Source: Aeromonadaceae bacterium
GTDB taxonomy: Bacteria; Pseudomonadota; Gammaproteobacteria; Enterobacterales; Aeromonadaceae
Length of the DNA stretch: 54,418 bases
Assembly: GCA_021209335.1 (NCBI GenBank)
Contig: JAJOIN010000022.1
Coordinates: 1 to 54,418, forward strand
Direction: 5' to 3'
Shown here: one piece after another, positions 32,842 through 34,917 of the stretch
Position numbering within the stretch: the first letter of the stretch is position 1
Layout of the letters: each line of letters begins with the position of its first letter
Translations under genes and position numbers: made by a program
The notes under the pieces: generated by a model
Databases searched by the model: none
Told to the model about the DNA's origin: nothing
The model's input: only the letters and a program-made list of their open reading frames with translations

Positions 32842-33072
32842 ATGGCGTATCTGTTGCATTGTCCGGCCTGTCAGGCCGAGGGGCTGGATCCTCGTCGCAG
32901 CGAGGCCAGCTGCACCCAGTGCGGCAAGGCATTTCGCCTGACCCCCCACTGTCCGGACTGTGACAGTGCGCTGGAGCGGGTGCAGGCCTGTGGCGCGGTG
33001 GACTTCTTCTGTAACCGCTGCAATAACCTGGTGTCCAAACGGGCGGCGCGCTACGACATACAGCCGCAATGA
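32842..33072 (+). CDS. Small zinc-ribbon protein (YfgJ-like)
   Basis: 76 aa with CPAC, CTQC, CPDC and CNRC knuckles; downstream of der as in E. coli. Confidence 0.85.
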   Translation: MAYLLHCPACQAEGLDPRRSEASCTQCGKAFRLTPHCPDCDSALERVQACGAVDFFCNRCNNLVSKRAARYDIQPQ

Positions 33073-33091: not shown

Positions 33092-33122
33092 AAAAAAAGG
33101 AGCCTTATGGCTCCTTTTTTTT
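33092..33122. terminator. Bidirectional intrinsic terminator
   Basis: AAAAAAAGGAGCC-TTAT-GGCTCCTTTTTTTT. Confidence 0.92.
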
Positions 33123-33149: not shown

Positions 33150-33287
33150 TTAGTAGCTTTGTGTCAGGAAGAAGGACAAGCGGCGGGTGGCCAGCTTGCG
33201 CACGCGACGTATGGTCACCCGTCGGCGTTGCCCATACCAGGGTTCGGTACGTTTCCGACGCTGTAATACCCCTCTTTTTCTTCTCAT
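33150..33287 (-). CDS. Arg-rich 45-aa small protein, uncharacterised (not in supplied ORF track)
   Basis: ATG preceded by AGGAGG with 7-nt spacing; translation MRRKRGVLQRRKRTEPWYGQRRRVTIRRVRKLATRRLSFFLTQSY*; terminator downstream. Confidence 0.75.
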   Translation of the reverse strand: MRRKRGVLQRRKRTEPWYGQRRRVTIRRVRKLATRRLSFFLTQSY

Positions 33288-33336
33288 AATGGTACCTCCT
33301 GAGGGTGGGCAGCCTGATCGACTGTCTGGCTCGATA

Positions 33337-34917
33337 CTAGCAGAAAATAACGCTGAAAAAAGCCCGCCGGGCTCTCAAGAAGAGGAGGGGATAGGGCCGT
33401 CGCCTGGTGGGGCTGTGGTGACTGCGGGGGGGCGTGGCGGGGGCCGGTGGTGGGGTGGACTGGGTGTCCGTGTCGCGACTCTCCGGTTGGCTGCGGGTGG
33501 CGATATTGAGCCAGCTTTGGCGAAACTGGCGCCGCTCCTCCTGCTGACGCTCGGTGGCATCGTACATGCGCAGGCTCTGGTAATAGCGGCGTATGTTGTT
33601 GACATAGAGGCGGGCTTCCCGGCCGCGGGCATAGCCGTAGCGGGTCTTGCTGTACCATCTGGCCTCGTGCAGCAGCGGCAGGCTGTCTTTCACATCCCGC
33701 CAGGCATCCGGGTTGCCGCCCCTGAGCTTGGTCAGGCGGCGGGCATCCAGCATGTGGCCATAGCCCATGTTGTAGGCCACCAGGGCAAACCAGATCTTCT
33801 CATCCTTGGGCACAGAGTCCGGCACCTTGTCGATCAACTGCCGCAGGTAGGTCGCGCCACCCTTGATGCTCTGCTCGGGATCCTTGCGATCGGCGATGCC
33901 CAACTCCTTGGCGGTGTCCTGGGTCAGCATCATCAGGCCGCGCACCCCTGTGGTGGAACGCGCCTCCTCGTTCCAGTGGGATTCCTGATAGCTGATGGCG
34001 GCCAACAGACGCCAATCCAATCCCTGGGCATAAGACTCAAACAGCTGGCGATACTTGGGCAGTACCTCCTTGACCCGTCGCAAGAAGGTGTGGGTATCCA
34101 CATAATCGAAGGTCTGCACATGGCCGAAGTACTTCTCGTCCAGCTGGGCCAGGGTGCCGTCCTGTTGGCGCTGGCCGAAGAAGTCGATGAGGGCGGCGTA
34201 CAGGGTATCGTCTTCCTGGCGCGAGAGGGCCCAGCCCACCGGGGTGGGGGGGGAGAGGGTCATGGCCTCAGCCAACTCGGGGTAGAAGCGCTGATTCTGG
34301 GCTAGCAGGGTGTCATCCACTATGGTGTAGGCGATCTTGCCCTCCGCCACCTCCCGCAGCAGGGCCTCGCTGTCGCCTTCTTCCTCCACCCGCCAGGGCA
34401 GGCTGTCAAACTGCTGGCTCAGGCCCTGCAGCAGATCCGCATGGCTGGAGCCCTTGACCACGACGATGGGCTCCTGGATATCGGCCAGTGAGCCAGGTCG
34501 CGGTCGGCCATTGCGATAGACCAGTTTCTGCTGCACCAGGTAATAGGAGGGGGTAAAGCGCAGCCACTGCAGCCGTTTGGGGGTGACCGCCAGGGCGGCA
34601 GCAATCAGGTCGACCTTGCCTTGGCTGAGCAGATCGAACAGTTGCTGGGTCTGGAAGGCGGGCACTATCTTGAGGTGCACGCCCAGGGTGTCGGCAAAGC
34701 GCTTGGCCAGCTCATAGTCCAGGCCGGTGGGCGTGCTATCCAACAGCCGGTAGGTGGTGCTGCTGTAGAGGGTGCCGACCCGCAATTCACCCCGGCGTTT
34801 TATTTCGTTGAGCTGTGATTGCCCGCCCTCCGGGCTACAGGCGCCAAGAAGCAAAACACCAATCAACAAAATCAACAGGTTAACTCTTGTATGGAATAGG
34901 CTAGCTCTACTGTGCAA
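33337..34917 (-). CDS. mltF: Membrane-bound lytic murein transglycosylase F
   Basis: Lipobox [12 protein letters not shown]3-like domain; SLT domain [26 protein letters not shown]. Confidence 0.95.
33355..33373 (-). terminator. Candidate intrinsic terminator inside the 3' end of mltF
   Basis: Minus strand: GAGCCC-GGC-GGGCTTTTTTC located upstream of the mltF stop codon. Confidence 0.55.

Follow-up and report, generated by a model that had tools for sequence, protein, structure and literature searches.

A conserved gene downstream of mltF for a short arginine-rich protein of an apparently undescribed family in Aeromonadaceae and related bacteria

A 45-codon reading frame on the minus strand of the 54,418-nt stretch of an Aeromonadaceae genome analysed here (contig JAJOIN010000022.1; hereafter the window) is almost certainly a real, selected small-protein gene. 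Its product appears to belong to an undescribed family that has been kept vertically in a large group of organisms, including major marine bacteria, Vibrio and Aeromonas, and that is absent from E. coli, the species that serves for most research on small proteins and ribosomes. With moderate confidence, based on composition, predicted structure and profile comparison, the product is regarded as an rRNA-binding, ribosome-associated small protein. No description of the family was found in the open-licence literature, and its members may already be present in databases as hypothetical proteins.

The coding sequence spans 33150..33287 on the minus strand, from the ATG start at 33287-33285 to a tandem TAA TAA stop (33152-33147), and encodes MRRKRGVLQRRKRTEPWYGQRRRVTIRRVRKLATRRLSFFLTQSY. 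Fourteen Arg and three Lys make up 17 of the 45 residues and the only acidic residue is a Glu, giving a computed pI of 12.0 and a charge of about +15.5; the sequence, coordinates and counts of the initial annotation were all reproduced on re-reading. Among the 989 six-frame ORFs of the window, this is the only one of 40-60 aa in which R+K reaches 37% or more. The gene lies between mltF (33337..34917, minus strand), its upstream neighbour and the syntenic anchor of this analysis, and a convergent yfgJ-like zinc-ribbon gene (32842..33072, plus strand). No RNA family (Rfam), tRNA or protein family covers the ORF. The initial annotation had recognised no family either, and the family as a whole has no match in Pfam, NCBIfam or PHROG and no relative in the PDB by sequence.

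The gene had been proposed to form its own transcription unit, and the signals behind this proposal were largely found as described. The Shine-Dalgarno sequence AGGAGG is located at 33295..33300 (minus strand), 7 nt before the ATG, and its core recurs in 34/34 Aeromonas-type loci. The extended -10 promoter element proposed upstream is present as TGCTAGTAT at 33334..33342 (minus strand), where it is a putative element that overlaps the mltF stop (the TAG lies inside it) and for which a generic sigma-70 scanner reported no -35/-10 pair. Related elements, CTGTTACCAT or CTGTTAGTAT, occupy the equivalent upstream place in 31 of the 34 Aeromonas-type loci and in A. diversa-type loci, and Oceanimonas/Oceanisphaera-type (g2) loci carry a different conserved element, TGTCACTTTAC (20/23). 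The bidirectional intrinsic terminator, placed about 30 nt downstream by the initial annotation, was found 28 nt past the stop at 33092..33122 (-18.5 kcal/mol, z -5.6) and is common to the convergent yfgJ-like gene; a terminator also lies directly 3' of the stop in 31/34 Aeromonas-type loci. Together, the conserved promoter element, terminator and Shine-Dalgarno sequence support a separate transcript for the small gene, which in Aeromonas would be a unit of about 250 nt with strong 5' hairpins. In the window, a further terminator-like hairpin in the last mltF codons (33355..33376, minus strand; -9.9 kcal/mol, with a modest z of -1.5) probably separates mltF from this transcript. The small gene is presumably expressed in the window genome.

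The initial annotation had suggested a conservation search in Aeromonadales genomes by tblastn. A tblastn search with the 45-aa ORF against 60 related genomes gave no convincing homologue and one 24-residue arginine-rich chance match, because the family diverges too fast for a single-sequence search. Homologues were instead recovered far beyond Aeromonadales by synteny and profiles, which succeed for such fast-evolving basic proteins where a single tblastn fails; tblastn alone would have led to the wrong rejection of the gene. In Aeromonadaceae, a small basic ORF was found downstream of mltF in every locus reaching far enough, and stop codons or frameshifts, which had been named as evidence against the gene, did not interrupt the frame in any of the 62 mltF-bearing loci read. 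A homologue of 45-55 aa, directly after mltF or beside purL, is carried by 74/77 Aeromonadaceae genomes, of which 67 match the profile and seven (the window's congener G001 and six genomes of the g4 genus) were added by reading beside purL. Among the three genomes without a homologue, the absence seems to be true in G004; G002 (purL not found) and G032 (contig ending at purL) are incomplete at the locus. The window genome is itself a 66%-complete assembly.

In the GTDB order as a whole, the profile matches 160 of 395 genomes, nearly always in single copy, and in the rest of the class it matches none of 368 other genomes, which bounds the false-positive rate. Homologues with intact start, frame and stop were read at 50 named loci located via MltF alignment, most of them in other genera; these loci include Vibrio, Photobacterium, Aliivibrio, Grimontia, Shewanella, Alishewanella, Alteromonas, Paraglaciecola, Colwellia, Aeromonas, Oceanimonas and Oceanisphaera. 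At 15 Enterobacteriaceae-type loci (Yersinia, Serratia, Erwinia, Pantoea, Edwardsiella, Xenorhabdus and similar), nothing downstream of mltF matched with an E value under about 0.05. E. coli K-12 has no homologue downstream of mltF; there mltF and tadA overlap by 4 nt, so there is no room for the small gene.

That the ORF is translated and selected as a protein is supported by codon-aligned homologues of two types, the Aeromonas type (MRTRRRATLARKTKCAWSPRRKLKLNDMKRKIWRRNRSYTLLIAEHTE) and the g2 type (MLKRRRALLKQRKPAGWSPRRKILMQDLRRKILRRNNAYFLTQATAE). The pN/pS of the coding frame was 0.23 for 31 distinct Aeromonas-type sequences (four other frames 1.3-1.6; the antisense frame sharing third positions 0.48) and 0.37 for 23 g2 sequences (four other frames 1.0-1.6; the corresponding antisense frame 0.47). 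The bias towards synonymous substitutions that the initial annotation had asked for was thus seen in both groups, and translation and selection of the window ORF are assigned by homology to them. When the window and its congener were left out of the profile, the window ORF came top among the 989 frames, at 16.8 bits and E=2.2e-4 against E=1.1 for the runner-up, and 0/2000 composition-preserving shuffles of the ORF reached its score. The same test was weak for the congener G001, whose ORF did not outscore its top shuffle (4/2000 reached its score) and is therefore assigned mainly by position. The initial Met and two arginines (window R22 and R35) are invariant in a 42-member alignment, and both arginines stay invariant in a 55-member alignment. 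The net charge of the homologues ranges from +11.5 to +15.6, with a pI of 12.

Members of the family share a layout of 40-60 aa in which a loose basic N-terminus is followed by a long basic helix with the pattern RR[KR]...[KR]K..xR..[SA][FY]. AlphaFold2, run with 42 sequences, predicted residues 17-44 to be helical at pLDDT 91-97 and placed an N-terminal helix at 2-14 with low confidence; the mean pLDDT of the model is 82. The hydrophobic moment of helix 17-44 is not unusual and the helix is not amphipathic; a membrane peptide is therefore unlikely, and contact with RNA all round the helix fits better. Neither a hydrophobic segment nor a signal peptide was found.

A very short, extremely basic, single-helix protein is also what bS22/mS38 (PF08213) and its functional analogue eL41 are. 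The family profile was compared by hhalign with eleven basic small proteins against composition shuffles, and only two actinobacterial bS22 proteins matched (z 3.9 and 4.2), with RRKRM..KKHRKLLRRTR of bS22 aligned to RRR..L..xHRK[VI]L.R.R of the family at z about 4. The other nine, a set of ribosomal proteins, rescue factors (ArfA among them) and ribosome-associated proteins, gave z -0.9 to 1.4. Of the reference sequences in these comparisons, those of bS22 and mS38 were confirmed against PDB chains. The Vibrio, Photobacterium/Grimontia and g2 subfamilies each matched bS22 above all 60 shuffles in the same register, the Alteromonadaceae matched more weakly in that register, and f10 showed weak similarity; taken alone, the Aeromonas, f6, f2 and g4 subfamilies do not stand out against bS22 in the shuffle test. 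The bS22 proteins of Flavobacterium and Borrelia and human mS38 did not match the family profile (z -0.8 to 1.3). PF08213 (COX24_C) was above its cut-off in 0/50 genomes without a weak match at the locus, and hit one of the 42 members at E=0.035; the NCBIfam bS22 model NF047430, which describes the actinobacterial protein and not E. coli Sra, matched 0/395 genomes. Since both models miss the locus and the Flavobacterium, Borrelia and human proteins do not match, homology to bS22 is not claimed. The small protein differs from bS22 in scoring under the COX24_C and NCBIfam thresholds, without being even a weak best match in the genomes, in about 15 extra N-terminal residues, in a C-terminal S-[FY]-x-L, and in being Arg-rich rather than Lys-rich. 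For other candidates the resemblance was one of composition only: bTHX, bL34, bL36, bS21, Sra, bL35, bL37 and eL41 were dropped after hhalign with shuffle controls, and bL34, bL36, bTHX, Sra and bL37, which fall in the same size and charge class as the small protein, showed nothing significant beyond composition against the family profile (z -0.9 to 1.4). The further candidate, a DUF2633/YfgG-like protein, was also dropped, as it gave no Pfam match.

In several genomes bS22 itself remained unannotated until cryo-EM revealed it, and its helix is described as lodged in an rRNA pocket close to h44/h27/h45 (Borrelia, PMC10618245; M. smegmatis, PMC5876184). A seat in the 30S pocket h2/h27/h44/h45 is characteristic of bS22, and the small protein may, by analogy, work in the same way. 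In the preferred reading, a single-copy gene equipped with a promoter, ribosome-binding site and terminator of its own would encode a strongly basic protein of 40-60 aa, whose helix would dock into structured RNA, most likely small-subunit rRNA, as single-helix proteins of the bS22/eL41 type do, and would there tune or stabilise the ribosome of this lineage. The initial annotation had suggested ribosome or nucleic-acid association; this gains some support from the basic helix, the charge of +11 to +16 and the resemblance to actinobacterial bS22, and it is best kept as a suggestion. The protein is not known to occur in ribosome structures from E. coli, which fits with its absence from that species. 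On the other side, the rare AGA and AGG make up 42% of the Arg codons in the Aeromonas homologues, unlike typical highly expressed ribosomal-protein genes, and the high divergence of the family speaks against a core ribosomal protein. The stronger form of this reading is more tentative: the family could be an overlooked small-subunit protein of Vibrio, Aeromonas, Shewanella and Alteromonas ribosomes, positioned in or close to the decoding-centre pocket as the gammaproteobacterial equivalent of bS22/eL41, and missed as E. coli lacks it. Should the product prove to be ribosomal, E. coli would be atypical of this group in one part of its ribosome.

The bS22 resemblance also bears on the alternative that survives best, in which the translated protein binds DNA or mRNA/sRNA as a nucleoid- or RNA-chaperone-like factor and not the ribosome. 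Composition and predicted helix fit such a binder equally, and the 5' UTRs of Aeromonas, which are long and structured (z -2 to -4.6), suggest post-transcriptional control, which is common for regulators. However, no DNA- or RNA-binding family is matched, no regulators are found as neighbours, and the bS22 resemblance points to rRNA, so we consider this alternative rather unlikely.

A ribosome rescue or hibernation factor like ArfA or ArfT, whose basic peptide would insert into the vacant mRNA channel, is improbable. Both are short basic peptides from small, easily missed genes, ArfT being similarly short and unannotated (PMC6299226), and the length of 40-55 aa, the basic charge and the separate transcript would suit such a role, as would the presence of the small gene in the g2 group, where no ArfA match was found in any genome. 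However, there is no sequence relation: the 42 members do not match Pfam ArfA (PF03889), hhalign gave z -0.8, and the alignment contains no Gly/Lys stretch like the KGKGS-like one near the C-terminus that defines ArfT (PMC6299226). A true ArfA is also present in the window genome and in Aeromonas, so there is no pattern of replacement, and in the window and the Aeromonas loci inspected the stop precedes the terminator, unlike in arfA. The separate ArfA of the window genome is located at G000:C98:3112-3240 (PF03889, E=1.2e-24).

That the small gene follows immediately on mltF in most lineages could point to a regulator or partner of the lytic transglycosylase MltF, or to an envelope-active peptide. 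This is very unlikely, because in several lineages, among them the genus of the window itself, the small gene adjoins purL with mltF gone (G001 and the readable g4 loci), which largely refutes a partnership and indicates that the small gene is under selection of its own, independent of this neighbour. The lack of a hydrophobic segment or signal peptide, the non-amphipathic helix and the separate promoter and terminator argue in the same direction. The usual place of mltF beside purL is empty in G001 (locus L136) and in the g4 genus (L137-L143).

Even less credence is given to a noncoding or dual-function small RNA with an incidental or secondary ORF. The transcript unit of about 250 nt, its strong 5' hairpins in Aeromonas and the AGA codons conserved at fixed positions would fit it, but the coding-frame pN/pS of 0.23-0.37, the conserved start, Shine-Dalgarno sequence and stop, the homology at protein level across families and the lack of an Rfam match all oppose it. 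A chance ORF with good-looking signals, as arginine-rich chance ORFs common in GC-rich DNA and the unconvincing tblastn in 60 relatives might suggest, is refuted by the conserved synteny, by the selection on the frame and by the leave-out profile, the homologues being too diverged for single-sequence tblastn.

Several further features of the locus were observed. The 5'-UTR hairpins of several Aeromonas groups are strong (z -2.0 to -4.6), those of g2 homologues are shorter, and the UTR in the window has no strong hairpin (z +0.6). Between promoter and Shine-Dalgarno sequence, inverted repeats (e.g. loci L005, L060, L006, L062 and L063) vary in sequence by Aeromonas lineage with the hairpin kept, and these repeats could form a regulatory or stabilising leader. 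The 42% of rare AGA/AGG among the Arg codons of Aeromonas-type homologues (e.g. L004, L005, L015) compares with 3.9% among those of mltF in these genomes; AGA is almost fixed at positions 5, 6 and 20, position 21 is CGC, and most other genera with several loci use AGA/AGG below this degree. A translational or RNA-level constraint is a possible cause. At the 3' end of the window mltF (33337-33376, minus strand), the frame crosses the hairpin and U-run at 33376-33355 and stops about 16 nt further, so that an mRNA ended there would carry no stop codon. The C-terminal tail of the window mltF is also of low complexity, so that an assembly frameshift is possible.
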